DNA from: Candidatus Poribacteria bacterium
GTDB lineage: Bacteria > Poribacteria > DTPJ01 > WJIO01
DNA: 15,132 nucleotides
Reading direction: 5' to 3'
Assembly (NCBI GenBank): GCA_014730235.1
Contig: WJIO01000042.1
Location: 1 to 15,132 of the forward strand
Program-made: the position numbers and the translations under genes
In this document: positions 28-14,336 of the stretch, piece by piece
How positions within the stretch are numbered: the stretch's first letter is position 1
Layout: each line of letters opens with the position of its first letter
Notes under the pieces: generated by a model
The model's database searches: none
The model's input: the letters and a program-made list of their open reading frames with translations, nothing else
What the model was told of the DNA's origin: nothing

Positions 28-3000
28 TTATTTTTCAACAGAATTATTGGGCAATGTAGAAATTGTCTCTTTCTCCATTACTTCATCTACATTTTCAGGA
101 AACTGCTGTGACTGTAGTTTCTTTAACGCTTCTCTATCTTCAGGCTTATTAATATCTATTATATGAGGTGTGATGAGAATCAGCAGTTCTGTATCCTCTA
201 TAACCTCGTCAGTTTTCTTAAACAAACGTCCTAAAAAGGGTATGCTGCCCAATATTGGTAACTTGTGAACAACCTTTTTCTTTTCAGACCTGATCATTCC
301 ACCAATTATTATCCGTTCACCGTTTTCCACATCAACATAAGTGGTTACATTGCTGTCAGAGGTAACAGGAGCATTAAAATCCGTATATTCAATAAAATTG
401 CTTACATTCATTGTAGTTATGTCCAGTCCGACTGTACGCTTTTCACCTTCTTTTAACATCCTGGTTTTTGCTATATGTGGTGTTATCTCGATATTAATAC
501 CTACATCTTCCAGAAAGCTGTAATCATAAAGTATATTACCGAAATTGTCCGTCCTGGTGCTTTCCAGATACGGGATATCTTTGCCTTTGCTAAGAACTGC
601 GGTCTGGTTATCCCTGGTTAACAGTGATGGAGTTGATAGAACTCTGACTTTATTTTCCCGAATCAGGGTATGCAAGAGAGCCGTTAAATTCTTATTGAAT
701 ACTTTATAGCTGAAGCCTATACTTTCCTGACTTAACTGGAAGTCAGTACCAAATTCACCTGTCCAGCCATCTTTGCCAAAGTGATTGCCTTCTCTCCATG
801 CCCATTCCAGACCAAGTTTTGTATCATCCGAAAGGGTAACCTCAAGAACTGTAATTTCAAGCCATACCTGACCTCTTACTATGTCAAGTTGGCGCAGAAT
901 TTCCTTTATCTGCTCAAAATTTCTTTCCGGTGTTGTAAAAATAAGAGAGTTAGTCAGGGTGTCGGCATTTACTCTTACCTGACCGGCCAGAGTAGTCATA
1001 TCTTTCAGCATGGTAACCTGACCGCCCATCATCATTCGGAAAAAGCTTCGTTCCCTTCTCTGCCAGGAACTACCGCCACCTTCCTCAGAGAATAGGTCAT
1101 TTAGCAGGTCTGACATATCCTCAGCCTGGGAATACTCCAGGGGATAAATCATGGTGCTGTATTTAAACTCTGATGGCGTTGGTTGATCCAGTTCCTTGAT
1201 TAAATCCTCCACAAGCTCGAAATTACGGGCTGACGATGATGTAACAATCAATGAATTATTTCTTGGATACGCAGATACTGTTATAGTTCCTGTAATGGTT
1301 GAACCTCTGGAACTGCTTCTGGAACTGCGGGGAAGCCAGAAAAATCTATCCCGGCCCCTATTACCTCCACCACTCTGATATATATTAGTTAGTATATCGG
1401 CCAGGTTTTCCGCATCGGCATTTTTTAACGGATAAATACGGGTATCGCTTTCCAGATCAGGTATAGTTGTATCCATCTTTTTTAGTAAATCTTTTATTAT
1501 GGGTATATTTGCAGAAGCGGTAGAAACGATAATAGAATTTAATCTTACATCTGCTATCATATTAACAGTGCCCTGTATTCCTGTTACTTCCTCTTCCTGA
1601 CCCCATCTTCTTCTTTCCCAGCGTCGTCGTTCTCTTTCCCACCAGGGTAGGTTTCGGTCGCTTGTACCCTCGAAAAGGTCTTGCAGGTTTTGTACTATTG
1701 TCTCAGCATCAGCATACTCAAGGGGAAATATATCTATGACTTCCTGAGGATCTGTCTGTTGATCAAGCTGTTTAATAATGTTTTCAATTAAAGGAAAATT
1801 TTGGGGATCGGATGTTACCAGAACAGCGTTTAATCTTTCGTCAGATACTATATTTACCTGTCCCTGAATACCTTTAACGCCGGATTCTTGCCGCTCACGC
1901 CTTCGCCATCTTTCCCAGGGCGGCATATTTCTACTCTGTGAACCTTCTAGCAAATCTTCCAGTTCTTCAGCCACATCCTCAGCAATAGCGAAATCCAGCA
2001 GAAAAACCTTTATCTCTGATTGAGCTACATCGCTGGTATCCAGTTCCTTTATCATCTGTTCTATACTGATCAGGTTTTCTTCTGAGGCTGTAATGATAAG
2101 TTTATTGGTACGTTCATCAGCAGAGATCATAACCAGACCTCGCACAAAATCTATACCTCTACCGGGCATGCGCCCACTTTTACGGGCCTGATCCAGTTCG
2201 TGCATCATATGATCTAATCCGCGCGTACTAAGTTTCTGAAGTCCCCGAGCCATCTCAACACCTTGGCTGAAAAGCCTTTCCAGGGTTTGTGACAGGGATC
2301 TGGCTTCTGCGTATTTCAGTGTAAAAACCTGAGTTCTTAAAATTTCTCCGGGTTCAGAGTCCAGTCTTTCCAGTATTGTTGCAATACGACGAATATTGGA
2401 TGAAATATCTGTAATAATCAGATAGTTGTTGGTGGCGTCTGCAAACATGTCGGCATTTTTGGCAATGAGGTTTTTCAGATTCTGCGACATCTCCGCAGCA
2501 TCAGCATAGTTTAGAGGAATAATCTGGGTAATCATCTCATCGCTTGATTCTATCTGCTCAGGATCTGCACCAAATTGGACCTTTACAGGTCTTGTTTTTG
2601 CTTCATCCAGTGAAATTATTACTATAGTCTTATTAACCCTTACTGTAGTAAAACCAAGAGTATTCAAAGCTGTTTTTACGGCTTCCAAAGCTTCTTCAAC
2701 AGTTATTTCCTTCAGATTTACGATGGTAACTTTCCCCTGCACTTTTTCACTTGCAATAAGGGTTAGGTTTGTTTCATCACTCATGAATTTCAATACATCA
2801 TGGATATTAGCATTCACCAGGTTAAAGAAAGAAAGCTTTGTAGCTTTCCCCGCTTCATCACGTTCCAGAACTTTTATCTGGTCTTCACCTATTTTACCCC
2901 CCTGAGCAAATACGGAATTACTTATCCCGGTTATTATCACCAGACATAAGGCAAAAGCCCAAAAGGTAAAGACAACTCCTTTTTTATGAAGAATGTCCCT

Positions 3001-3030
3001 GTCCCCTCTTTTACTGAATTCAAACACCAT
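28..3030 (-). CDS. gspD: Type II secretion system secretin GspD with an expanded N-domain stack
   Basis: This is the outer-membrane channel of the T2SS, 1000 residues (classical GspD is about 650-700). A hydrophobic signal peptide spans about residues 17-42 and ends VFA-Q, a plausible signal peptidase I site. N0 lies at about 66-145. Six N1-type ring domains follow at about 165-229, 230-333, 338-427, 430-523, 527-619 and 623-720; each has an opening strand like IYPLEYADA and closes with a strand such as LNAVLVTS and a helix ending in KxLD. The secretin barrel domain is about 720-960, with VLSTPSLLTRDNQ (797-809), the VGINIEITPHI strand, GERIIIGGMI and LPILGSIPFLGRLF. The C-terminus (961-1000) is short and polar. 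There is no lipobox. The ATG is preceded by GGAGG at 9-nt spacing and by a second AGGAG closer in. It is the last gene of the operon; only 27 nt follow it, with no terminator visible. Confidence 0.97.
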   Translation of the reverse strand: MVFEFSKRGDRDILHKKGVVFTFWAFALCLVIITGISNSVFAQGGKIGEDQIKVLERDEAGKATKLSFFNLVNANIHDVLKFMSDETNLTLIASEKVQGKVTIVNLKEITVEEALEAVKTALNTLGFTTVRVNKTIVIISLDEAKTRPVKVQFGADPEQIESSDEMITQIIPLNYADAAEMSQNLKNLIAKNADMFADATNNYLIITDISSNIRRIATILERLDSEPGEILRTQVFTLKYAEARSLSQTLERLFSQGVEMARGLQKLSTRGLDHMMHELDQARKSGRMPGRGIDFVRGLVMISADERTNKLIITASEENLISIEQMIKELDTSDVAQSEIKVFLLDFAIAEDVAEELEDLLEGSQSRNMPPWERWRRRERQESGVKGIQGQVNIVSDERLNAVLVTSDPQNFPLIENIIKQLDQQTDPQEVIDIFPLEYADAETIVQNLQDLFEGTSDRNLPWWERERRRWERRRWGQEEEVTGIQGTVNMIADVRLNSIIVSTASANIPIIKDLLKKMDTTIPDLESDTRIYPLKNADAENLADILTNIYQSGGGNRGRDRFFWLPRSSRSSSRGSTITGTITVSAYPRNNSLIVTSSSARNFELVEDLIKELDQPTPSEFKYSTMIYPLEYSQAEDMSDLLNDLFSEEGGGSSWQRRERSFFRMMMGGQVTMLKDMTTLAGQVRVNADTLTNSLIFTTPERNFEQIKEILRQLDIVRGQVWLEITVLEVTLSDDTKLGLEWAWREGNHFGKDGWTGEFGTDFQLSQESIGFSYKVFNKNLTALLHTLIRENKVRVLSTPSLLTRDNQTAVLSKGKDIPYLESTRTDNFGNILYDYSFLEDVGINIEITPHIAKTRMLKEGEKRTVGLDITTMNVSNFIEYTDFNAPVTSDSNVTTYVDVENGERIIIGGMIRSEKKKVVHKLPILGSIPFLGRLFKKTDEVIEDTELLILITPHIIDINKPEDREALKKLQSQQFPENVDEVMEKETISTLPNNSVEK

Positions 3031-3084: not shown

Positions 3085-4215
3085 TTATCTACGTCGGTTT
3101 CTTCGACCGGAAACTTCTCTCATCATCTGAGGATTATTTCTAATCTGGGTCTCAAATTCCTGGCGTAATTTTTCTCTGAGATCCGGGTTATTTTGCAATT
3201 CCTCTATAGAAATGCCACGTTCTTCCAGCATTCTTCTGGCAAAGGGTGGTATTTGACTGGCATCAAAACTATCTCTATCATCTCTTCTGGCATCTCTGCG
3301 TGATGAATCACCACCCCTGTTACCTCTGTCGCTTCGTCCTTGCGGTCTATTATTAAAGCCTCCCCCGGCTCTTCTTCCCCCTCCGGAAGTACCCACACCA
3401 AGTCTTATTTCTTCTTCATTACCATCACGTTCAAATTTTACCACTTCATCTTCAATATTTATAACCTCTAGATTACCGGCAAATTTATCTCCTTCAGTTA
3501 CATAGTAACTTTTTCTTCCACCCTCTTCTTCAATTATGGCCTTTTCACTAGTATCCGGATCAGAGCTTGCTATAACTGCTGTCAGAGAAAAGGATGTCTT
3601 CCTTTTTTCGCCACCTGATCCCAGCGGCATAAATAGGTTTTTATTAACGACTGCATCAATATAGGCTTTAATCGGGTCCTGATTATCGTTACCTTCATCA
3701 CGCCTTCGTCTTTTTTCCCCTTCTCGTCCTTCATTTTCAGGTATATCATCAGTTAAGTCATTATTCTGCATACTTTGACGCATTTTCTTCATTATTTCTT
3801 TTCTGAGTTCCGGATTATCTCTTAGATCCCTTGGGGTCAATCCTTCCTCTTCCAGCATCTTGCGGAATTCTCCTGGCCCGCCGCCCGAACGTTCCGGGGA
3901 TTCCTCCTCAGGTGGAAGATTTCCATCCGAAGTTTCCGGTGGTGCTTCCTGTCCTGATTTTATGGATTCATATTTTGCATCATTATTAATTTCAACAGGA
4001 ACTTCATCCTTGATTATAAAATTCTCAATTTCAAGGGTTTCACCCTTATCAACCTGGATTTCTTTAACTTCAGTCGCTTCTTTTTGTTCAACAATTACCG
4101 CCCTCTGAGCCGAAGCAGTTGCAGGTAATAAAAGAAAAATAGAGAAAAAGATAAAGCTATTTATGTTCCAAGTGTTTTTTTCTATTTTTACTAGTTTACG
4201 AAACAAAGACAACAT
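3085..4215 (-). CDS. GspC/PilP-like periplasmic linker protein (HR domain) with two flanking helical repeats
   Basis: I infer the adaptor between the inner-membrane platform and the secretin N0 domain. I chose the ATG at 4215 (376 aa): an in-frame GTG at 4227 lies directly against the AAGGGG Shine-Dalgarno-like sequence, too close to use it. A hydrophobic segment (about 17-33) ends ATASA-Q, so the protein may be cleaved rather than anchored as normal GspC is. Residues about 182-273 match the GspC homology region/PilP fold: a YIDAVVNKNLF entry, strand FSLTAVIAS, then YYVTEGDKFAGNLEVINI and VVKF. This core is flanked by two copies of a ~40-residue motif (113-152 and 323-362). An Arg/Gly-rich linker follows the core and the C-terminus ends GRRNRRR. 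It lies between the PilO/GspM-like gene and gspD, the pilP position in pil operons. The assignment rests on the HR-like core and on context; overall identity is probably low. Confidence 0.72.
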   Translation of the reverse strand: MLSLFRKLVKIEKNTWNINSFIFFSIFLLLPATASAQRAVIVEQKEATEVKEIQVDKGETLEIENFIIKDEVPVEINNDAKYESIKSGQEAPPETSDGNLPPEEESPERSGGGPGEFRKMLEEEGLTPRDLRDNPELRKEIMKKMRQSMQNNDLTDDIPENEGREGEKRRRRDEGNDNQDPIKAYIDAVVNKNLFMPLGSGGEKRKTSFSLTAVIASSDPDTSEKAIIEEEGGRKSYYVTEGDKFAGNLEVINIEDEVVKFERDGNEEEIRLGVGTSGGGRRAGGGFNNRPQGRSDRGNRGGDSSRRDARRDDRDSFDASQIPPFARRMLEERGISIEELQNNPDLREKLRQEFETQIRNNPQMMREVSGRRNRRR

Positions 4216-4236
4216 ATCCTTTTTCACCCCTTAATA

Positions 4237-5427
4237 TTAGTCATATAACACAGTGGCCATCATGTTAATCTCTACAGCCAATATAGTCTCTCTTCTATCT
4301 GATACTGATAAGCGCATGCTTTCTATTTTAAGCCATTTGGCATTTTCCTGCAAGTTATATAAGAACCTAACCAGTTGATCCATACGGCTTTTGAAAATAA
4401 CTTTAACGGTAAATAGACCTGTCTTATCATTTACCTGATCTCCCCGAGTTGGCTGTAATTTGGAAAGCGAATCAATAATTTCAGCTTTTGTCTGTCTAAC
4501 TCTGTCACCATATACTTTTATAATATTTCTTATTCTTTCTCTCTCTACATCATCATCTATCCCGGCTTCATCCAGTACAACATTTATGACTGTAGTTGGA
4601 AGGATTTTTCCATCCCGCTGAGTGATCCATTTAATCATGGTCGCTTTAACTTCATCAGGCATATCAACAGGAATAGGGAGGAATACAGGTTTCTTTCCAT
4701 CAGATTTAGTCTTATTGTTATCTTGTTTTTCTTCCTTTGGTTCATCCGGACTTGATTCTCCGACCTGCTCTTTTTCCATCTGCCACTGACTGAACTCCCG
4801 GATCATTTTGTTCCTGAGTTCTTTATCAGACATTAACTGTTCCGCAGTCACACCTTTTTCCTTAAGAAATTCATGGGCTTCCGGGGGTATTTTATCAGGA
4901 TCAAAATCAGCTTCAACGTTTTCTGCCATTTCAGCTTCAATATCTTCAGGCTCAGGGCCTCCCATGCCAAGTCCCTCAGCCTTAAAAACTTCCATTTCCC
5001 GGGCCAATTGCCCCATATACATGCTGTCAACTGTAGCTTGCAGGAGATTGCGCTGGCTTATTTTTGCACTTGAACGCTTCCCTGTATACGGTTTGGCATC
5101 CAACTGTTCCAGTTCACCTATCTCTGATCTACCAGCAAGTTGTGCGATGAAGTTAATAATCATGGAATCAGCAATACCCCTTGTGAAAGAAATATCACCA
5201 TAACCTGATTCCTGACGAAGTTGCTTTTCCAGATCAACCAATTTAGGCCCTAAATCCTGAAGCTTTTCCATTGCCTCAATTCGGGCTTCCATTTCATCTA
5301 TGCTAAGGCCAGGACCGGAATTGTTTCCTTCTAAAGCTGGAAGGAGAAAAAAGTATACCAGTATAACTACAGCCGCAAGAACGCCTATGCCGATAAAAAC
5401 CTTTTCACGTTTGGTTATTTGCCTCAT
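4237..5427 (-). CDS. PilO/GspM-like inner-membrane platform protein with a large central insertion
   Basis: Bitopic platform protein, 396 aa from the chosen ATG at 5427. A GTG at 5457 would overlap the upstream gene and has no ribosome binding site, while GGAGG lies 12 nt before the ATG. Residues about 1-10 are cytoplasmic and basic, and a single membrane helix spans about 11-32 (FIGIGVLAAVVILVYFFLL). An acidic, predicted helical/coiled-coil stretch follows (about 42-75). The C-terminal ~60 residues (about 338-396) match the ferredoxin-like PilO/GspM domain: FTVKVIFKSRMDQLVRFLYN, then WLKIESMRLSV and a final strand VEINMMATVLY. Between them is an insertion of roughly 185 residues carrying one copy of the helical motif also found in the next gene (about 181-219), a Lys/Glu/Asp-rich linker (about 225-245) and a second helical region (about 258-322). 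GspM is usually below 200 aa. It starts 4 nt after the PilM-like gene ends. Confidence 0.72.
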   Translation of the reverse strand: MRQITKREKVFIGIGVLAAVVILVYFFLLPALEGNNSGPGLSIDEMEARIEAMEKLQDLGPKLVDLEKQLRQESGYGDISFTRGIADSMIINFIAQLAGRSEIGELEQLDAKPYTGKRSSAKISQRNLLQATVDSMYMGQLAREMEVFKAEGLGMGGPEPEDIEAEMAENVEADFDPDKIPPEAHEFLKEKGVTAEQLMSDKELRNKMIREFSQWQMEKEQVGESSPDEPKEEKQDNNKTKSDGKKPVFLPIPVDMPDEVKATMIKWITQRDGKILPTTVINVVLDEAGIDDDVERERIRNIIKVYGDRVRQTKAEIIDSLSKLQPTRGDQVNDKTGLFTVKVIFKSRMDQLVRFLYNLQENAKWLKIESMRLSVSDRRETILAVEINMMATVLYD

Positions 5428-5431
5428 AATA

Positions 5432-7030
5432 TTAATTAACCTCCTGCATTGCGTCACTGTTTAGCGCACAGACTATTTGTACCTGCAGTACAGGACGTTT
5501 GTCTTTGGTTACTTTGGATATAGCACCATGATCTATGTCTGTAAACAAGTTTACCTTATCCATCAACTTCATTTCACTTAATAACTGTATTGTCTCAGTA
5601 ATATCTGCATGAGAGTTGGCCTCGACGCTTATGGTTAATCTGCCTTTTTTATCAATATTAAAGCTGGTCAGAGCAATCTTTTTCCTGTCGGGGAGGCCGC
5701 TGCTCATTTCTCTCAGAACTTCCAGAGGTGTTAAATAAGGAGTCATGATCTGGCGTGTCAATATACTTTTTTGTAATGAAGCCATTGCTGTTTTTGTCTC
5801 TTTTTTTTGTTCCATCTGTTTAATTCTTGTATTCAGTTCTTCAATACGGGCGTTTTTGGCTCTTCTCCATCCGGCGACACCCAGACCTGCGGCTAGAAAT
5901 ATAATAACAGCAACAACAGTTGCTACGGTTATAGTAAATTTGCGTTTTGCCTTCTCTTCTCGTTCCTTTATTTCTTTTGGTATTAGGTTTGCATTAACAG
6001 TCATATTCTCAGCTTTATTTGCTGCTATCAAACCAAGACCAAGGGCGACTGATATCCTATTTTGTATATTTTCTTCCGGTAGATTACCGGTTAGGCCATG
6101 GGCAGGATTCCATATACCTATTTCAACACCTATTTGATTTGAAAGAAAATCACCGAGACCCGGTATAACAGAGCTACCACCGCATAGCCATATGGCTTCA
6201 ATATCGGCTTTTGCTCTTTCACCGACAAAAGCTCTTATGGATAACTCTATCTCTTTTGCCAGACTTTGACCCCACTTTTGTGTTATTTCGCCTGCCGACT
6301 CGGTATTGAAATTCGCCTCTCTGATCTTCTGCTCTTCCGCCTGATGGAAATCAACACTGTAATGCTTCTGAAAGAGACCTGTCAAATTATTACCACCGAG
6401 GGGAAAACTTCGGGAAAAAGCTAATCTGCCATGTTGTATAATGCAAATATCCGTCATCCCTGCGCCAATATCTGCGAGAATTAAAGTTTTTCCCGCCAGT
6501 TGGTCTTTAAATTGATTAAAAGCTACGGCATAGGTGGCAAATGCTGACGGGACAACCGCTGTAAGACCAAGCCCTACAGCCTCTGCCATTTCCACATAGG
6601 ATTCCACTGAACCTCGTTTGGCAGCAACTACTTCCAGGGACGTACCTTCTTTGGAATGTTGGATATTGTATACACTGTATATAGATTGTTCAATGGGAAA
6701 GGGAAGCTCAGGGGCAACCTGTATGGGCACCATCTTTTTAACGTCCTCGTCAGAGGCCGAAGCTGGCAGATTGCTCAGGCTCTTGATTGTAACATATTGT
6801 CTTGGTATTGAAATAGCCGCCGGTTTAGTATTAAAACCAGAACTGCGTATTAATCCTAACAAGATGTCAGTAATAACGTCCTTTGGAATCTTATCTGAGG
6901 TAGATGCTCGAGGTAAATTTTCAGAAGCTGCCCCGGTAACTACTACCCCTGTCTCTGTCACTTCCAGTTCCATAACTTTAATGGAATTTGTACCAATATC
7001 AACTGTAGTGATGTAATTCTTCTTAGCCAA
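5432..7030 (-). CDS. pilM: PilM-PilN fusion protein acting as GspL
   Basis: Inner-membrane platform component of 532 aa that recruits the secretion ATPase. Residues 1-340 form an actin-like PilM domain with its nucleotide-binding motifs: DIGTNSIKV at 11-19 (phosphate 1), LADIGAGMTDICII at 185-198 (phosphate 2) and LCGGSSVIPGLGDFL at 282-296 (adenosine). A PilN-type start follows (NLIPKE, 348-353), then a membrane helix at about 366-388, a coiled coil at about 390-425 and a periplasmic ferredoxin-like domain to the end. Separate pilM and pilN genes are thus joined in one polypeptide, which is the topology of GspL. The start is TTG, chosen because GGAG lies 6 nt upstream and DIGTNS is properly placed near the N-terminus. 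It follows gspK by 34 nt. I am confident of both domains; calling it GspL is based on the surrounding T2SS genes. Confidence 0.9.
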   Translation of the reverse strand: MAKKNYITTVDIGTNSIKVMELEVTETGVVVTGAASENLPRASTSDKIPKDVITDILLGLIRSSGFNTKPAAISIPRQYVTIKSLSNLPASASDEDVKKMVPIQVAPELPFPIEQSIYSVYNIQHSKEGTSLEVVAAKRGSVESYVEMAEAVGLGLTAVVPSAFATYAVAFNQFKDQLAGKTLILADIGAGMTDICIIQHGRLAFSRSFPLGGNNLTGLFQKHYSVDFHQAEEQKIREANFNTESAGEITQKWGQSLAKEIELSIRAFVGERAKADIEAIWLCGGSSVIPGLGDFLSNQIGVEIGIWNPAHGLTGNLPEENIQNRISVALGLGLIAANKAENMTVNANLIPKEIKEREEKAKRKFTITVATVVAVIIFLAAGLGVAGWRRAKNARIEELNTRIKQMEQKKETKTAMASLQKSILTRQIMTPYLTPLEVLREMSSGLPDRKKIALTSFNIDKKGRLTISVEANSHADITETIQLLSEMKLMDKVNLFTDIDHGAISKVTKDKRPVLQVQIVCALNSDAMQEVN

Positions 7031-7064: not shown

Positions 7065-8600
7065 TCAACCTTGTTTCCAATATTTTATAATTATACGATT
7101 TCCACTACGGTCAATTACCGCATTACAGCTTTCTATTATTTTACCATCCAGTGATTTACCTTCCGACTCAATCCTGTAGGCATGGGATCTGTATGTAATA
7201 TGATCAATAATTTCTCTGAACGTTTGTTCATCAAATCCCTCTACATTAAGAAGCCTACCCAGGTCTGTGAAAGGGCCTGGTTCGTTGCTTTCCGGATCAG
7301 ATGTAATGAAAGCCGATCCGCTTTCAACTGTCCTGTAGTCCACAATTGCCTGAGCTTTATTATCATCCATACCCGGAAGCATACGGAGTATTTCTAATGG
7401 TGCTGTGTTAATATTAATCTTTCCCTGTAATACCGATTCATCTGTAACTGTTATCCGATCAACTATACCCACAAATTCATCCATATTGATAAGTTTAACA
7501 TCTCTTAGCTGTTCTACATTTTCAAATTGGTTTTGTTGCCTGTGATTAACTATACTTTCCGCTATTCCGCTATCAATTCCTTCAAGTTCCTGAAGTTGAT
7601 TCACGTCAGCAGTATTTATATTTATACGGTCTCCCTCTTCGCCTTCCTGGTCATCTGTGGTTATTCTTTCCAAAATTATATCAAGGGTGCTTTGCGAAAT
7701 TGCCGGAACATCCAGAAGCTGGGTTATACTATTAAAAACCTGCTGTTGTTGTCCATCTGGATTATCAGGATCTGTGGGTTGCTGTTCACCTTGCTGTCCG
7801 CCTTGTTGCCCTTCGCTTTCTTCATTTCTATAATCAACTATAGACTGAGCTTCCTGCTCTGTAATGATCTCGTCTCCTTCACCGTTAACACCTTCTCTGA
7901 TCTGATTCGCATCGGCTGTATTCAGATTTACCCGTTCATTTCCATCGCTTGTAGTGTTCTTATCAACTGAATATACCGTTGCTATATCCACCAGTGCTGA
8001 TGCTTCAGTTTCTTCCTCATTTTCTTCATTTTCCGATAATACTGCTGTAGGATCGGTGGATATAAGTAATTCTTCCTCTGCTGATCTGCCGTATAGTATC
8101 TCAGGAGTCATACCTGCGGCTTTAGCAGCTTCTGCCACTGTATTAAATGGGCGTTTTTCGATAACAGCATTTGCCAGAGTCTGAGCTTCGCTTGATGACT
8201 GTTCCTCAGACAATATATCGTCAGTCGTTGTTCCCATGCAGTATAAAATAGCATTTGTCAGTATCTCCTGATTAACGGTATTGAGATTAATCCGGGCTGA
8301 TTCATCTGTAACTGTGGTTGTATAAACGCTGTTATTAAGCTGATCTGAAAGTTCCTCTGTCCATTCTTCATCCAGAGAATCATGTCCTGTTTCGTCATCC
8401 CTCAGCATGGCCACAGCCGTTTCCAGTCCGGCTTTTGCTGCGTAATAGGCCCTTACCTGATCGCTCCAGTTTCGGGCAATCCTGATTTCCAACTGCATGG
8501 AATACATAAACTCCGAGGCCAGAACGGTTAATATGGTTATTATCCACATTACAGCAATCAGGGATACTCCCTTTTCATCTCTGAATCTATACACAAACAT
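7065..8600 (-). CDS. gspK: Minor pseudopilin GspK with four helix-hairpin-helix-type repeats
   Basis: Minor pseudopilin expected at the tip of the pseudopilus with GspI and GspJ. The prepilin leader ends DEKG (residues 8-11), followed by VSLIAVMWIITILTVLASEF. Position +5 is Ala instead of the usual Glu, a hallmark of GspK. At 511 aa it is longer than typical GspK (about 300-340). The signature N-terminal stretch is IARNWSDQVRAYYAAKAGLE (41-60). Four repeats begin with I/V-N-hydrophobic-NT at about 103, 224, 326 and 395 and continue into helical hairpins like LEGIDSGIAESIVNHR or LPGMDDNKAQAIVDYR, recalling the T2SSK helical domain. A Gln/Gly-rich linker (264-287) splits the second repeat. The C-terminal strand region (470-511) includes a late Cys492. 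It starts 2 nt after the gspJ stop with only a weak AAGG ribosome site, suggesting translational coupling. Confidence 0.93.
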   Translation of the reverse strand: MFVYRFRDEKGVSLIAVMWIITILTVLASEFMYSMQLEIRIARNWSDQVRAYYAAKAGLETAVAMLRDDETGHDSLDEEWTEELSDQLNNSVYTTTVTDESARINLNTVNQEILTNAILYCMGTTTDDILSEEQSSSEAQTLANAVIEKRPFNTVAEAAKAAGMTPEILYGRSAEEELLISTDPTAVLSENEENEEETEASALVDIATVYSVDKNTTSDGNERVNLNTADANQIREGVNGEGDEIITEQEAQSIVDYRNEESEGQQGGQQGEQQPTDPDNPDGQQQQVFNSITQLLDVPAISQSTLDIILERITTDDQEGEEGDRININTADVNQLQELEGIDSGIAESIVNHRQQNQFENVEQLRDVKLINMDEFVGIVDRITVTDESVLQGKININTAPLEILRMLPGMDDNKAQAIVDYRTVESGSAFITSDPESNEPGPFTDLGRLLNVEGFDEQTFREIIDHITYRSHAYRIESEGKSLDGKIIESCNAVIDRSGNRIIIKYWKQG

Positions 8601-8602
8601 AA

Positions 8603-9412
8603 CTAACGACCTTGACCTATTGCCATTTCGGGTTCTTTTTCCTGTACCGATTCACTCATAGGAAGATACACAACCACACCTTCAGTTAAAGTCTTTTCCC
8701 CTGTATCAGCATCAGTAATAGTAAGGGTAATTTCTAAACCTTTGGGAAGTCCTTCGTTTTCCTCGCTGTCCCACATATCAATCCATTCTTCGCCATCAAA
8801 ATATCTCAGGTTTAAAGCTGAAACATAATCAGCCAATGCTGATGAAATAATTCCCTGTTCTTCCATATCCTCTGTAGATACTGATGTGGACATAACCTGA
8901 TCAAGGATTTCCTCCAGTTCTTCAATATCCAAATTAGAGGTCTCTATTCTCATCAGGCTTGTTACACTTTCATCATCAGGATTGGGCCCAAGATAATATA
9001 CGATCCTGGCCAGATCGCTTGGTAATGTGTTATCTTCTTCACTTATTAAATCGGCTTCCTCCAAAGGTACATAATCTTCAATCCTTGGTTCAACGATAGA
9101 AACAAAGCTGATCATATCCTGATCAGTGCCCATTTCATCATCAGAATAATCTTCAGAAATTAACACCATTTCTTCATTACCACTTACAAAGAAAATATTA
9201 TTGGCATCCCGAACAATTCTATCCAGAGCAGATCTGCATCTTTGAAGCATTATTATACGGGTTTCATCCCGCTGATAAACTTTTAATGATGAACGAAAGG
9301 CAGCGTACACTGAGCCGATAATCATCATGGTAATTACAGTAGCCACCATGACTTCAATCAGGGTAAAACCTTCTATATTATCATGATTATCATGTGTTCT
9401 ATTCCATGTCAT
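8603..9412 (-). CDS. gspJ: Minor pseudopilin GspJ
   Basis: Minor pseudopilin, 269 aa. The class III leader is 15 residues ending IEG, followed by FTLIEVMVATVITMMIIGSV, with Glu at mature position 5 for membrane extraction and subunit register. The residue before the cleaved Gly is acidic (Glu), which is less usual than Lys. The family signature sits near the C-terminus: LNLRYFDGEEWIDMW, then LPKGLEITLTITD (about residues 201-234), matching the conserved GspJ strand-Trp-LP pattern. The globular domain is strongly acidic, with several Glu/Asp runs between about 110 and 185. The ATG overlaps the gspI stop by 4 nt (ATGA), so translation is probably coupled. In other T2SSs GspJ forms the tip complex with GspI and GspK, both adjacent here. 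Confidence 0.93.
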   Translation of the reverse strand: MTWNRTHDNHDNIEGFTLIEVMVATVITMMIIGSVYAAFRSSLKVYQRDETRIIMLQRCRSALDRIVRDANNIFFVSGNEEMVLISEDYSDDEMGTDQDMISFVSIVEPRIEDYVPLEEADLISEEDNTLPSDLARIVYYLGPNPDDESVTSLMRIETSNLDIEELEEILDQVMSTSVSTEDMEEQGIISSALADYVSALNLRYFDGEEWIDMWDSEENEGLPKGLEITLTITDADTGEKTLTEGVVVYLPMSESVQEKEPEMAIGQGR

Positions 9413-9816
9413 ATCTGCTGTTCTTCCTGCTGAATAGTTTTATCGGCTAAAATTGTGCTGAGTTCCACACTTTGTTCCCGGCCTCTTTCCAGCCATATCA
9501 CAGTAACTGTTACCTGATAAAGTCCTTCTGTTTCTAACTCTGTTGTATCTGAAATCCATGTAAAACGGGAGTTTGCTCCAAATTCACCCTCTTCTGATCC
9601 TGCTTCAAATTCACCCAGCATCTCTATTTCAGCCATCCTGAGTTTAAGCAGATAAAGAGCCGTTGTGCGGTTTTCGATAGTCGTCTGGTTCTTTGTGCCA
9701 TCGGAAAAGGCTTTTAGCAAAACAGGCAAAGCGATAGCAGCTATGGTAAGGGCTACTATAATTTCCAGTAAGGTAAAACCCTTTTGATCTTTGCTTAATA
9801 TTGAATTAATTATCAT
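9409..9816 (-). CDS. gspI: Minor pseudopilin GspI
   Basis: Small minor pseudopilin, 135 aa, close to the family norm of about 120-130. The leader ends DQKG (residues 10-13) and is followed by FTLLEIIVALTIAAIALPVL, with Glu at mature position 5. Family features after the helix include the ALYLLKLRMAEIEML stretch (about 54-68), GEFGANSRFTW (about 77-87) and the paired strands LYQVTVTVIWLERG (about 98-111). GspI is known to nucleate the GspI-J-K tip complex. No convincing Shine-Dalgarno precedes the ATG (upstream bases AAAATATAGTC). This is notable because the gene follows the longest gap in the operon, which contains an inverted-repeat element. Confidence 0.93.
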   Translation of the reverse strand: MIINSILSKDQKGFTLLEIIVALTIAAIALPVLLKAFSDGTKNQTTIENRTTALYLLKLRMAEIEMLGEFEAGSEEGEFGANSRFTWISDTTELETEGLYQVTVTVIWLERGREQSVELSTILADKTIQQEEQQI

Positions 9817-9849
9817 GACTATATTTTATCGATCAAACCATTTAATTTT

Positions 9850-9994
9850 TTGGTTCTTCCGACCCGAGTGTGGCAATTTAAAAAGCATTGTTTAATTAAG
9901 AAAAATATCCTCTTTTTGGTCATTCCCGCTTTTGCAGAAATAACAAGTTGAAAGAATTTTCAAATTATTACCACACTAAACCCGGAAAAACCAA
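9850..9994. repeat. 145-bp imperfect inverted-repeat element between gspH and gspI
   Basis: The 183-nt gspH-gspI gap holds a symmetrical element. Its ends, 9850-9873 and 9971-9994, are 24-nt inverted repeats matching at 18 of 24 positions (both begin TTGGTT and end AGTGTGG when read inward). In RNA made from the minus strand, four of the six mismatches become G-U pairs, leaving 22 of 24 paired. Inside is a second hairpin at 9919-9944: an 11-bp stem around a 4-nt AAAA loop, again fully paired only in minus-strand RNA because three pairs are U-G. A third short hairpin (TTGAAA/TTTCAA) lies at 9948-9963. No ORF is visible and no clear target-site duplication flanks it. It could be a decayed MITE or palindromic repeat, or an RNA structure controlling the downstream half of the operon. 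Confidence 0.6.
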
Positions 9995-9999
9995 TTTCT

Positions 10000-10710
10000 T
10001 TATTCTTCTTCATCTAATAGACCCAATTCTTCCTTTTCTTCATCAATTAGTTCTTTGATGTTTGTTCTACCTGTGGTCCGGGTTACACTTACCATATATA
10101 CCCTACCGGATGAGCTTGAAAGATATATCTCAAAATCCTCAGCGGTGCCATCGGGTCGGAATACTATATAATTATATCCACCTTCCCTGTCACTGCTTCG
10201 GGAAGATATGATCCGGGAAATTTCAATACCGCCGGAAGGCTGTTTTGGTATTCCTAACACACCACCGGTGCGGGAAAACGTAGTTTCACCAAGGCCCTCA
10301 TCATCATTGGCTAAAGGCACTTCATTTGATTGGGCCAGGGCATCCAGGCTGTCAGTAAGGGATGTTCGGGACATGTCACCCACAACCGTCCCGTCAGAGC
10401 CTGCTTCCAGGAGTTCCAGTAGCGATAACCAGTATTCCTGGTTTTCAATATCAAAAAGCACTACATATTCAGTACGTTGCGTAACACTTGATGTCCTGGC
10501 AAATTCCATCAGACTTCTGATACTTCTGGCACTGCTCCGCAGGCGGTTACTTTCAGCAAAGGTTCGCATCCAGGGAACTGTGGCAGAAGTCATCAGCAGC
10601 ATTATAAATATGACAATTGCAATCTCTATAAGCGTAAAACCTGATTTATCAACATGCAGATTCAGGCATAATTTCTCTTTTGTTTTGCCTGTTTTTATTT
10701 TCGATTTCAT
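10000..10710 (-). CDS. gspH: Minor pseudopilin GspH (GspH/FimT family)
   Basis: Pseudopilin of 236 aa. An unusually long 24-residue leader ends DKSG and is followed by FTLIEIAIVIFIMLLMTSAT, with Glu at mature position 5. After the helix comes LRSSARSIRSLMEFARTSSV (58-77), the conserved GspH/FimT pattern that is followed by strands reading EYVVLFDIENQEYWL. A late block FRPDGTAEDFEIYL (184-197) is the family's FxPDG strand. The C-terminal tail is highly acidic, ending DEEE. Family members are more often 150-200 aa; the extra length lies in a variable loop at about 100-175. GspH links the GspG filament to the tip complex. The ATG has only a weak AGAG site upstream. It follows gspG by 31 nt and is followed by the inverted-repeat element, so the region between gspH and gspI may be a processing or expression boundary. 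Confidence 0.9.
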   Translation of the reverse strand: MKSKIKTGKTKEKLCLNLHVDKSGFTLIEIAIVIFIMLLMTSATVPWMRTFAESNRLRSSARSIRSLMEFARTSSVTQRTEYVVLFDIENQEYWLSLLELLEAGSDGTVVGDMSRTSLTDSLDALAQSNEVPLANDDEGLGETTFSRTGGVLGIPKQPSGGIEISRIISSRSSDREGGYNYIVFRPDGTAEDFEIYLSSSSGRVYMVSVTRTTGRTNIKELIDEEKEELGLLDEEE

Positions 10711-10741
10711 GATTTTTGCTCTGTAGCTGTGGATTGCAATA

Positions 10742-11197
10742 TTATAATTCTTCTTCCTGTAGCCAGTTGGTTATATCTGCCCCGTCCTCAGTTCCACCTT
10801 CCTGTCCATCGGCACCGTAAGAGTAAAGGTCATAATCATATCCCTCGTGATTACCGGGAGAAACATAGACATATTTATTACCCCAGGGATCCAGAAAGTT
10901 TGTTGGATCGACGTAAGGGCCGTTCCAGTTCATAGGTTCTGGTGGTGATGTAGGTTGTCGAATAAGGGCTTCCAGACCTTGTTCTGTGGTTGGATAATCG
11001 CCGTTATCTGCTGCATACATATCCAGGGCAACCTTAATCTGGTTTATATCCAGTTGGGCTTTCTGCGGTTTTGCCTGACGCAGACGACCTATTACTCTGG
11101 GCATTACCATTCCGCCAAGAAGAGCAAGTATGGTAATAACAACCATAAGCTCAATAAGCGTAAAACCAGATTGTTTAGATTTTGATAATTTTTTCAT
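10742..11197 (-). CDS. gspG: Major pseudopilin GspG
   Basis: Major subunit of the T2SS pseudopilus, 151 aa, normal for the family. The short basic leader MKKLSKSKQSG (1-11) precedes FTLIELMVVITILALLGGMV, with Glu at mature position 5. The class signature is nearly complete: LDMYAADNGDYPTTEQGLEA (58-77), then GPYVDPTNFLDPWGNKYVY (93-111), PGNHEGYDYDLYSYGADG (114-131), GG, and ADITNW (140-145). The C-terminal Asp-rich loop corresponds to the calcium site of known GspG proteins. This combination distinguishes it from type IV pilins and identifies the system as T2SS. GAGGGG lies about 10 nt before the ATG. The last residues are acidic (QEEEL). It follows gspF by 50 nt in a very AT-rich gap with possible extra expression signals. 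Confidence 0.98.
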   Translation of the reverse strand: MKKLSKSKQSGFTLIELMVVITILALLGGMVMPRVIGRLRQAKPQKAQLDINQIKVALDMYAADNGDYPTTEQGLEALIRQPTSPPEPMNWNGPYVDPTNFLDPWGNKYVYVSPGNHEGYDYDLYSYGADGQEGGTEDGADITNWLQEEEL

Positions 11198-11238
11198 TAT
11201 TATATACCCCTCTAACAGTTTATATTCATTATTATATA
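11193..11238 (-). promoter_or_regulatory. AT-rich gspF-gspG leader with a duplicated 14-nt start-site sequence
   Basis: The 14-nt sequence TATATAATAATGAA occurs twice in direct orientation on the minus strand, once covering the gspG start (11206-11193) and once 32 nt upstream (11238-11225). The upstream copy holds an ATG that would encode only M-N-I-N-C before a TAG overlapping the gspG ribosome site (TAGAGGGG). Both copies contain TATAAT, identical to a sigma70 -10 element, but no strong -35 is visible at 16-18 nt upstream. It may be a mini-leader, an internal promoter for the abundant major pseudopilin, or chance in AT-rich DNA. Confidence 0.25.
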
Positions 11239-11247
11239 TTAATCTTA

Positions 11248-12468
11248 CTAAACAGTAATCATACTGCTTGCTTCAAATATAGGCAATACTGCTGCTGCTA
11301 CCAAAAAGCCAACAGCCAGAGCCATTATCAAGATAATAAGTGGACTTATAAGGCTGGATATACGTTCCAACTGTTTGTCCATCTCTGTATCATAATATTC
11401 TGAAAGTTTAACCAGCATATCCTGGGGATTACCCGATTCTTCACCGATGGAAATCATATGGGTAACAAGGGTGGGAAATTCGCCGCTCCTCTGAAGTGAA
11501 GCCGCCAGAGATTCACCTCGTTCAACCTCTCTTTCACTTCTTTCAACAATATTCCTGTAAACCCTATTTCCTATGGTCTCTCTGACTATAGCCAAGGCTG
11601 AAAGTATAGGAACGCCATTATCCAGCAATGTTGCCAAAGTCCTGGAAAATCGGGATAAGGCAGAGGTGCGGTAAATTGTACCAGCCATGGGAATTTTGAG
11701 TTTTATCCTGTCAATATTTTCTTTTCCTTTATCAGTCTTTGCATATTGACGTATACCAAATACGGCCAAAACAATCACCAGTAAGATAACCCACCACAAT
11801 TTTCTGATTATATCGGTAATAGACATAAGTATCTGTGTAGGCAGTGGTAAAGCTGTACCAAGTTCTGTAAACATGCTGCTTAATCTGGGTATAACAAAAA
11901 GGGTAAGAACAGCACCGATACCTAATCCTACGCAGATTAATATAATAGGATAGAACAAAGCTGATATAACAGAGCTTCTCAGCTTACGTTGTTTTTCCGA
12001 AAAATCCGCAAGCCTTGCCAGCACCAGACCAAGAACTCCCCCGGTCTCACCGGCTTTAACAATATTTATGTAAAGATCTGAAAATATATCCTTGTGGCGT
12101 GAAAGCGCGTCATAAAGAGTGCTTCCATGTTCTACATCGTAGCGTATTTGATCAATTGCATTGCGCAGATAATTGCTGTTAACCTGTTCTGATGCCACTG
12201 ATAAAGCCCTGGTCAAAAGAATACCCGAGTTAAGCAGCGTGGCTAACTGATAGCTGAAAAACTCAAGGTCGCTGGCTTTAACTTTTTTACCAAGTCTGAA
12301 AGACGGCAGGCGACTTTTCTTCTCTTCGATCTTTTCTTCTTCCACAGTCATAGGGAAGTAGCCATTTACCTTAAGCTTTGCTATCAACTCGTTACTGCTT
12401 TCGGCCTGCATAGTCCCGTTGACTACGTTACCTGAATTTGTCATTGCCTCATAGATAAATCTGGGCAT
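11248..12468 (-). CDS. gspF: T2SS inner-membrane platform protein GspF
   Basis: Polytopic platform protein, 406 aa, exactly the family length, that contacts GspE and couples ATP hydrolysis to pseudopilus growth. It has the two tandem T2SSF domains: the first about 68-193, starting LEFFSYQLATLLNSGILL and including GETGG (140-144); the second about 271-396, starting LSRFSRTLATLLDNGVPI and including GEESG (342-346). Three membrane segments are visible at about 169-195, 223-242 and 374-397. The N-terminus FIYEAMTNSGNVVNGTMQAE is the typical small domain, followed by a charged linker (43-63) rich in Lys and Glu. The ATG is preceded by AAAGGA at suitable spacing. It follows gspE by 31 nt. Confidence 0.98.
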   Translation of the reverse strand: MPRFIYEAMTNSGNVVNGTMQAESSNELIAKLKVNGYFPMTVEEEKIEEKKSRLPSFRLGKKVKASDLEFFSYQLATLLNSGILLTRALSVASEQVNSNYLRNAIDQIRYDVEHGSTLYDALSRHKDIFSDLYINIVKAGETGGVLGLVLARLADFSEKQRKLRSSVISALFYPIILICVGLGIGAVLTLFVIPRLSSMFTELGTALPLPTQILMSITDIIRKLWWVILLVIVLAVFGIRQYAKTDKGKENIDRIKLKIPMAGTIYRTSALSRFSRTLATLLDNGVPILSALAIVRETIGNRVYRNIVERSEREVERGESLAASLQRSGEFPTLVTHMISIGEESGNPQDMLVKLSEYYDTEMDKQLERISSLISPLIILIMALAVGFLVAAAVLPIFEASSMITV

Positions 12469-12499
12469 TGTTTATTTCCTTTAAATTTTGGTATTTAAA

Positions 12500-14239
12500 C
12501 TAATAAGTACTGTATTCTTCATCTGCCGTTACTCTTCGAACTTCCTCAATTGTAGTTACACCACGCATTACTTTTAACCAGCCATCTTCACGAAGGGTTC
12601 TCATACCATGTTTTCTGGCAACCTTTCTGATCTCGGTAGTTGGCACTTCCTTGTAGGCCATGTCCCTTATGTCGTCACTCATAATAATTATCTCATATAG
12701 AGCAACACGACCGGAGTAACCACGATAATTACAGTCTGGACAGCCAACAGGTTTTGGTATCAATATATCAGCATCTACAGTTCCGGGCTCCACGCCTAAA
12801 TCCCTGAGTTCAGTATCATCAGGATGATACATTTCCCGGCATCTTCTGCATACTCGACGGACAAGACGCTGGGCTGCTATACCTTCAAGACTTGAAGCCA
12901 CAAGATAAGGCTGGACACCCATATCAATAAGCCTTGTGACAGCACCGGCTGCATCGTTTGTATGCAGAGAGCTGAATACCAGGTGACCTGTAAGGGCTGC
13001 ATGGATAGCCATTTCAGCCGTATCACTGTCACGAATTTCACCTACCATTATTTTGTCCGGGTCCTGACGCAGGATATGCCTTAGAGTGTTGGCAAATGTA
13101 ATACCAATATCAGTATTAACCCCTATCTGGTTTATTCCCGGAAGGTCATATTCCACAGGTTCCTCAACCGTAAGTATTTTTATTTCCGGTGTGTTTATCT
13201 CTTTTAGACAGGCATATATAGTGGTTGTTTTGCCGCTGCCTGTAGGCCCTGTTGTAAGAATAATTCCATGTGGTCTGTTGATAAGTCTTCTGAATTGGGC
13301 CATATTATCTTCCAGCATACCCAGTTCTTCCAGACCAAAAGAGACGATAGTTTTGTCCAGAATACGCATGGCCACCGTTTCACCCCAGAAAGTGGGCACA
13401 GTGGAAACACGGATGTCAATTTCCCTGTTTCCCAGTGTTGGTATTCTACGCTGAATACTGCCGTCCTGTGGTCTTCTGCGTTCTGCAATATTCATATGGG
13501 ACATAATCTTAACACGGGATATAATTGCTCGTTCAATATTCTTAGGTGGTACAGGCCTTTCCTGTAAAACGCCGTCAACGCGAAACCTGATCCGCGTATT
13601 TTTTTCCATCGGTTCTATATGAATATCAGTGGCTTTTTCCCGAACTGCATCAATTATTAACTGGTCTACATAGTGTATAACTGTCGGTGTTTGAGCCAGG
13701 GTTTCCGAATCAAGACCGAAGTCTTCAATAGCTTCAATCTCTTCAACTGGAGTTACGCCAATAGGAACATCAAGATTTCGATTAATTATATCCTCGGCGG
13801 TCATACCATAAAATCTTCTTATGGCATCCAGTATATCATTTTCCTGGGATAAAACGGGTTGAATTTCTGTTTCTGTGATTAGCCTTATGTCATCTATAAG
13901 ACCCACATCCAATGGGTCGGTCATTGCTACATGGAGGATATTATTTTCCAGTTTTAACGGAACAACCTTTTTGTCCGCCGCAAAATTTGCCGGCATAAGA
14001 GCCGTTGCAGATTCATCTCTACTCAGGTGTTCCAGTCGCTTATACTCAAAACCAAGTTCTGCTGCCTGCTTTAGAGCATCAATATCTTCCTGGGTTATAT
14101 GGTCTCTTTCTATCAGGGCTTCTTTTAAAGATATACCGTTCTCTTCTCTATATTTTTCAGCCTCAGCCCTTTCTTCCTCAGTAAAGGCCCCGGCCTCCAT
14201 TAACATATCTATTAATGTGCTTTCTTCATATTCTATCAT
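12500..14239 (-). CDS. gspE: T2SS assembly ATPase GspE
   Basis: Hexameric secretion ATPase on the cytoplasmic side. I chose the ATG at 14239 (579 aa), with GGAGG 13 nt upstream; an in-frame TTG at 14263 would put that ribosome site inside the gene. The N-terminal domain (about 7-147) is MshEN-like but lacks the RLG residues expected of cyclic-di-GMP-binding versions. The ATPase core has Walker A GPTGSGKTT (331-339), the Asp box with EEPVEY (359-364), Walker B IMVGEIRD (397-404) and the His box LTGHLVFSSLHTND (416-429). A zinc-binding tetracysteine motif, CRRC...CPDC (464, 467, 500, 503), is intact, as in GspE and PilB and unlike retraction ATPases. The conserved ATDIHIEP block is at 203-210. 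It is the first gene of the operon. Confidence 0.97.
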   Translation of the reverse strand: MIEYEESTLIDMLMEAGAFTEEERAEAEKYREENGISLKEALIERDHITQEDIDALKQAAELGFEYKRLEHLSRDESATALMPANFAADKKVVPLKLENNILHVAMTDPLDVGLIDDIRLITETEIQPVLSQENDILDAIRRFYGMTAEDIINRNLDVPIGVTPVEEIEAIEDFGLDSETLAQTPTVIHYVDQLIIDAVREKATDIHIEPMEKNTRIRFRVDGVLQERPVPPKNIERAIISRVKIMSHMNIAERRRPQDGSIQRRIPTLGNREIDIRVSTVPTFWGETVAMRILDKTIVSFGLEELGMLEDNMAQFRRLINRPHGIILTTGPTGSGKTTTIYACLKEINTPEIKILTVEEPVEYDLPGINQIGVNTDIGITFANTLRHILRQDPDKIMVGEIRDSDTAEMAIHAALTGHLVFSSLHTNDAAGAVTRLIDMGVQPYLVASSLEGIAAQRLVRRVCRRCREMYHPDDTELRDLGVEPGTVDADILIPKPVGCPDCNYRGYSGRVALYEIIIMSDDIRDMAYKEVPTTEIRKVARKHGMRTLREDGWLKVMRGVTTIEEVRRVTADEEYSTY

Positions 14240-14336
14240 ATTTATTAATACACCTCCTACCAAAAATATTTAGACGAAAAAGCGGTATTCAGGTTTACTT
14301 TATAAAAGGTTTATAGGCGTCATAACGCGTTTTTAC

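Follow-up and report, generated by a model that had tools for sequence, protein, structure and literature searches.

A predicted three-helix module recurring in the GspC-like proteins of Poribacteria and present in the GspM-like protein of one genome

Introduction

GspC connects the outer-membrane secretin with the inner-membrane platform. The least conserved and least understood parts of the protein are its two ends. In Dickeya, GspC is linked to GspL and GspM by transmembrane segments, and the periplasmic part of GspC shows no binding to those of its partners (PMC3815138). Models from Xanthomonas show the periplasmic part of XpsC in contact with XpsL and XpsM (PMC11981180). Species differ in the variable second periplasmic (2P) region of GspC, which can be a PDZ domain or just one helix and which is thought to dock substrates; XcpP and XpsC have no PDZ in this region (PMC11981180).

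The stretch of DNA analyzed here (the window) is 15,132 nucleotides of contig WJIO01000042.1 and carries a type II secretion (T2SS) operon of a Candidatus Poribacteria bacterium. A preliminary description of the window had pointed to a helical motif found twice in a GspC-like protein and once in the GspM-like protein next to it. The repeated unit is a real module of poribacterial GspC, of about 38 residues and three predicted helices, which has not been described before. All features given below are on the minus strand.

The GspC-like protein and its operon

The GspC-like protein is a predicted 380 amino acid chain encoded at positions 3085..4227. It displays a leader, a disordered arm, a copy of the motif, the homology region (HR) domain, a Gly/Arg-rich arm and a second copy of the motif. 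Scores with T2SSC (20.8 bits, cut-off 27) and with NF041515 GspC_delta (28.2 bits, cut-off 150) are both sub-threshold. The HR domain at positions 3400..3663 is a six-stranded domain modelled by AlphaFold2 with a pLDDT of about 90. It matches the family profile A7 with an E-value of 1.7e-28, which is partly by construction. The best matches of profile A7 among PDB sequences are LspC (7.7e-4) and OutC (0.01). In Foldseek the first four fold matches of the HR domain are PilP (3jc8_Pa, first), the PulC HR, GspB and LspC; the PulC HR match (6hcg_e) has a TM score of 0.72 by target length and a probability of 1.00. Membership in GspC is thus indicated by an HR domain recognized by fold and profile, with Pfam and NCBIfam models below cut-off, and by the T2SS operon in which the gene lies, with GspD and GspM/GspL encoded next to it. 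No PDZ domain is found in the protein by Pfam scan, and what follows the HR domain in the model is helical only. As PDZ is optional in GspC, its absence does not decide membership.

The leader (4108..4227) was defined by a rule-based hydropathy and AXA check. It has a 17-residue core and a signal-peptidase-I-like end, ATASA/Q, with putative cleavage at the slash (ASA/Q); by this crude rule the relatives are mixed. Many poribacterial GspC leaders are short with signal-peptidase-like ends, unlike the long transmembrane cores of their GspM. This contrast is blurred in the order-mates G001 and L125, whose leaders are as hydrophobic as a transmembrane helix (KD19 2.6-2.7), and in E. coli, whose GspC reaches only 2.33.

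The GspM/PilO-like protein (406 aa, 4237..5457) is named from gene order and from sub-threshold models, T2SSM at 13.8 bits and NF040576 (XpsM) at 22.8 bits, both below cut-off; it has matches in 23 of 39 relatives. Its N-terminal transmembrane helix has a core of 23 hydrophobic residues and no cleavage-like site. The GspL-like protein (PilM plus PilN-like) is at 5432..7030 (PF11104, 150.5 bits). The secretin GspD is at 28..3030 (PF00263, 125 bits; Secretin_N, 272 bits); this 1000 aa chain has six Secretin_N stretches. The rest of the operon (7065..14263) was assigned from open reading frames, Pfam and gene order, and encodes GspK, four pilin-like proteins, a GspF-like protein and GspE. Pfam identifies GspK by PF03934 and HHH_3, and GspE by PF00437; the pilin-like proteins are named by order and an N-terminal pilin motif and the GspF-like protein by position. 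The GspK-like protein (7065-8600) contains four HHH_3 stretches.

The repeated module

The unit occurs three times in the window, always on the minus strand, at about 3130-3270 and 3757-3891 (GspC-like) and 4768-4908 (GspM-like). Positions 3130-3249 translate to PPFARRMLEERGISIEELQNNPDLREKLRQEFETQIRNNP (the C-terminal copy of the GspC-like protein), 3760-3879 to GPGEFRKMLEEEGLTPRDLRDNPELRKEIMKKMRQSMQNN (the copy N-terminal to the HR domain) and 4771-4890 to IPPEAHEFLKEKGVTAEQLMSDKELRNKMIREFSQWQMEK (the GspM-like copy). The places given in the preliminary description are correct. The homologous stretch begins slightly 5′ of those limits with an FDxx(Q/K)IPP flank, and the copies are taken here as SFDASQIPPFARRMLEERGISIEELQNNPDLREKLRQEFETQIRNNPQMMREVSG at 3106..3270 (GspC C-terminus), GGGPGEFRKMLEEEGLTPRDLRDNPELRKEIMKKMRQSMQNN at 3727..3891 (GspC, N-side of the HR domain) and DFDPDKIPPEAHEFLKEKGVTAEQLMSDKELRNKMIREFSQWQMEK at 4744..4908 (linker of the GspM/PilO-like protein). 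Each was examined by pairwise scores, by a genome profile and by a profile of outsiders, and the GspM-like copy also by tblastn.

The three pairwise local scores are 82, 62 and 80, which lie 7.5-11.3 SD over the values for composition-shuffled sequences; in 2000 shuffles no such score occurred. A tblastn search of the whole genome with the entire GspM-like protein returns itself and the GspC C-terminal copy only (E 3.3e-4). A profile of the copies has exactly three sites in the genome, which is a Poribacteria MAG of 5.5 Mb, with E-values of 3e-26, 2e-25 and 8e-22; these sites are the sequences that built the profile. An independent test of homology comes from a profile made of relatives outside the window's order. 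It recovers each of the three copies in the window (i-E 4e-11, 8e-10 and 1e-6, Z=10000) and matches no other open reading frame there. As judged by sequence comparison, the three copies are homologous above background. The reciprocal profile matches and the unique sites within the genome also bear out the view that the motif is too specific for a generic helix or low complexity.

The consensus is PPxxxxxLxxxG in helix 1, [ST]xxxL in helix 2 and [ND]PxLRxx... in helix 3. AlphaFold2 models of nine copies show helices at residues 9-18, 22-27 and 29-45 and a weak fourth, with a mean pLDDT of 79. The C-terminal GspC copy has predicted helices at the same residues (9-18, 22-27, 29-45 of SFDASQIPPFARRMLEERGISIEELQNNPDLREKLRQEFETQIRNNPQMMREVSG) with a pLDDT of about 85. 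In the full-length GspC model the N-side copy has helices at 118-127, 131-136 and 138-155 (pLDDT 87-89). Both copies (85-89) and the HR domain (89-94) stand out in this model as ordered islands, and the arms between them are mostly below 50. These models suggest that the unit is probably a small, independently folding three-helix module. The core had at first been read as ending in a second helix with a Gln/Asn-rich turn; the models give three short helices, not two, and the relatives do not conserve the turn. The core residues L, G and L and those of the NPxLR region are conserved from family to family, at an identity to the window copy of mostly 23-43%, which suggests that selection acts on the single GspC copy at least.

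The module does not reach the cut-off of any Pfam family and is not a named GspC, GspM, PilO or PilP domain; the preliminary description had likewise not recognized it from standard accounts of these domains. Identity with a known domain was also sought in NCBIfam and PDB sequences and was rejected, as only sub-threshold helical look-alikes were found. A fold search with the isolated module has a best Foldseek E-value of 4.9 and a best Z of 3.9; a 55-residue helical model makes such a search uninformative, and the lack of a match does not speak for a new fold.

Distribution in Poribacteria

An order-only profile, built from the window's three copies and one from its order-mate G001, was searched against 84 genomes from the phylum. 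Its best outside matches are in G004 (5.4e-12), G048 (1.2e-10) and G046 (2.5e-7), all Candidatus Poribacteria and all in GspC-like proteins. The matching proteins have a leader, the module and then an HR domain with the NNLFRPLGYR signature or close variants. A profile search had been proposed at the outset as a check on the motif; it finds only three sites in the genome of origin, and the strong outside matches are all GspC-like. With an 18-sequence profile, 16 of the 84 genomes have matches at E <1e-6, in HR-bearing proteins or same-position fragments, many of these matches being among the sequences that built the profile. Matches weaker than 1e-3, e.g. a recurring lipoprotein-like family, were treated as background. 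A full-GspC profile drew many HR-only paralogues and was left out of the module counts.

The module is found on the N-side only in G004, G007, G012, G014, G016, G022, G046 and G078. It is on both sides of the HR domain in the window genome (G000) and in G042, G043 and G045 of family f4, where the two-copy GspC, to go by a weak tree, probably arose by independent duplication. A C-side copy only is found in G001, L125, a second GspC-like protein of G043, and G003 C32. Among the N-side forms, G040 and G048 are cut by contig ends; among the C-side forms, G044 is cut. Module-free GspC-like proteins are L121/G047, the GspM-adjacent protein of G003 and the short ones of G029. The module is therefore not essential. 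It is a common, dispensable part of poribacterial GspC which changes sides of the HR domain. The order-only profile reaches distant families and the reverse search also works, so the profile evidence marks the module as an old accessory element of GspC across Poribacteria.

Several genomes (G018, G021, G036, G064, G082 and others) have amplified sets of HR-domain proteins that lack the module, such as L155-L164, with up to 15 matches per genome. Often these are small orphan open reading frames beside unrelated genes (LGWTPPRPxEPYRLLGTIIP type); one of them scores 24.9 bits with T2SSC. A distinct C-terminal helical element, similar to RNASPEERRKMIEQEF, ends many poribacterial GspC/HR proteins that have no C-side module; it is present in L151, L153, L154, L162 and L011, with looser forms in L119 and L150.

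Beyond Poribacteria, the search covered E. coli GspC/GspM, without a match, and 34 other genomes from the group that includes G084, without a match below 0.001. Viral contigs gave no module match, and plasmids gave matches only at E of 4 or more. Spread to Omnitrophota via L125 (JAMWBX010000148.1, labelled Omnitrophota) was considered and rejected. This contig has GspM, GspC and GspD of the window-order type. It is thinly covered (0.69), part of its secretin is masked or unread, and its far end looks foreign. As, moreover, no other genome of that group matches, it is probably misbinned.

The copy in the GspM-like protein

The GspM copy is known from one genome only. Its motif falls in a linker between well-conserved blocks, where both order-mates (G001 and L125) are gapped by 15 and 30 residues, the larger gap lying over most of the motif. 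The order-mates have the C-side GspC copy in the same place in the protein (65% identity to the window's in G001, 59% in L125), and the N-side and GspM copies are absent from them. The window's N-side copy sits where most other poribacterial families have their single copy. Compared with the three GspC C-side copies of the order, the GspM copy reaches scores of 91-93; with the N-side copy of the window it reaches 58. It has an FDxxxIPP flank in common with the GspC C-terminal copy. On these scores it looks like a lineage-specific transfer from GspC, and copying from the GspC C-terminus into GspM would be the simplest reading of the direction. A tree of the 41-column module is too short to give the order of duplications.

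The preliminary description had proposed a shared docking or oligomerisation module spread by internal duplication within the platform. Homologous copies and the apparent GspM transfer support duplication; confinement to the platform does not hold, since the module is an old GspC element across Poribacteria. Because it is old there, often as one copy beside the HR domain, duplication explains copy number and not origin.

Other domains are found in GspM linkers. The GspM-like protein L034 of G046 (frame 2, 419 aa) displays Jag_N (61.4 bits, cut-off 25) and HHH_3 (27.9 bits), and L039 of G016 displays HHH_3 at 45.1 bits. By eye, L037 has a Jag_N-like stretch similar to that of L034. HHH_3 is thus in the GspM linkers of two relatives and also in the window GspK. 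Jag_N and HHH_3 in these linkers show that poribacterial GspM acquires domains, some common to operon neighbours, and the present motif is one case of this.

Possible role

The module may be a docking module of old GspC origin that tethers the flexible GspC ends to the platform in the inner membrane, with the GspM copy as an added site; we put the probability of this at about one half. The reading builds on the homology, specificity, positions and distribution of the module, on its predicted helices and on the GspM linker block that relatives lack. The HR domain would bind the secretin, and the module, flanking it on one or both sides via disordered arms, would hold the ends. Since many of its leaders have a signal-peptidase-like end, poribacterial GspC may lack the membrane anchor used by proteobacterial GspC for GspL/GspM; given that Dickeya GspC is joined via transmembrane segments, an anchor-less GspC would need another contact. 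If the leader is cleaved, the module would lie at or near the mature N-terminus in single-copy forms. GspC of the window lineage has two copies of the module; an additional one, closest to the C-terminal copy, would have been inserted into the GspM linker, where it may give the platform an extra docking site. Loss of the anchor, the docking, its partner and the direction of copying are the parts that we infer.

Alternatively, the module may be a local form of the 2P region that binds secreted proteins, extra copies raising avidity. The C-terminal copy does occupy the place of the 2P region, thought to dock substrates (PMC11981180). In most families, however, the module precedes the HR domain and lies towards the membrane, and a GspM copy is unexpected for a substrate receptor, which makes substrate recruitment somewhat unlikely. 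Homotypic pairing of the GspC and GspM copies, ordering GspC-GspM stoichiometry, would account for homologous copies in two neighbouring subunits of one operon and for a lineage-specific GspM copy; it is quite unlikely, as the usual state is a single copy per genome, carried by GspC alone. A form in which GspC is cleaved from the membrane and held by the module instead of a transmembrane anchor, the GspM copy letting both subunits clasp, is very doubtful. Neutral drift of a foldable cassette, with functionless extra copies, would fit the location of every copy in disordered, low-complexity arms or linkers, the GspM copy in one genome and the free variation in number and side; it is made highly improbable by the core residues kept at such low identity. 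Chance or convergent helix similarity is extremely improbable, for although the sequence is short, charged, helical, of a common kind and weakly matched by many helical families, the reciprocal matches are independent, strong E-values occur only in GspC-like targets, and the sites are unique in their genome and missing at 0.001 from the 34 genomes mentioned above.

A defined module on the GspC ends in much of a phylum is a handle on T2SS wiring outside Proteobacteria, and its occurrence in GspM in one genome points to subunits that may have a binding partner in common.

Comparison with known systems

STI1/DP, SHOCT, DUF896 and E3-binding domains have a short helix-turn-helix look in common with the module, the SHOCT likeness being our assumption, and sequence or profile scores are far below cut-off. 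DUF896 (PF05979) reaches at best 17.9 bits, with the GspC N-side copy (gathering cut-off 24.2), and the E3_binding or peripheral subunit-binding domain (PF02817) 14.3 bits (gathering cut-off 23.7). The Sti1 chain 2llv matches at E 1.0 over 22 positions only, and STI1/DP is absent among the listed fold matches.

PilP of type IV pili is a lipoprotein with a PilN/PilO-binding arm. It shares the HR-type beta domain, 3jc8_Pa being the top Foldseek match. Unlike PilP, the window protein has a leader without a visible lipobox and has extra helical modules.

The closest likeness is to GspC/PulC/OutC/XcpP. The window gene lies between the secretin gene and the GspM-like gene, and its product has an HR domain followed by a variable region. 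Unlike these proteins, it has no PDZ, carries the three-helix module before and/or after the HR domain, and has long disordered arms; in poribacterial GspC the leader is, in addition, often signal-peptide-like.
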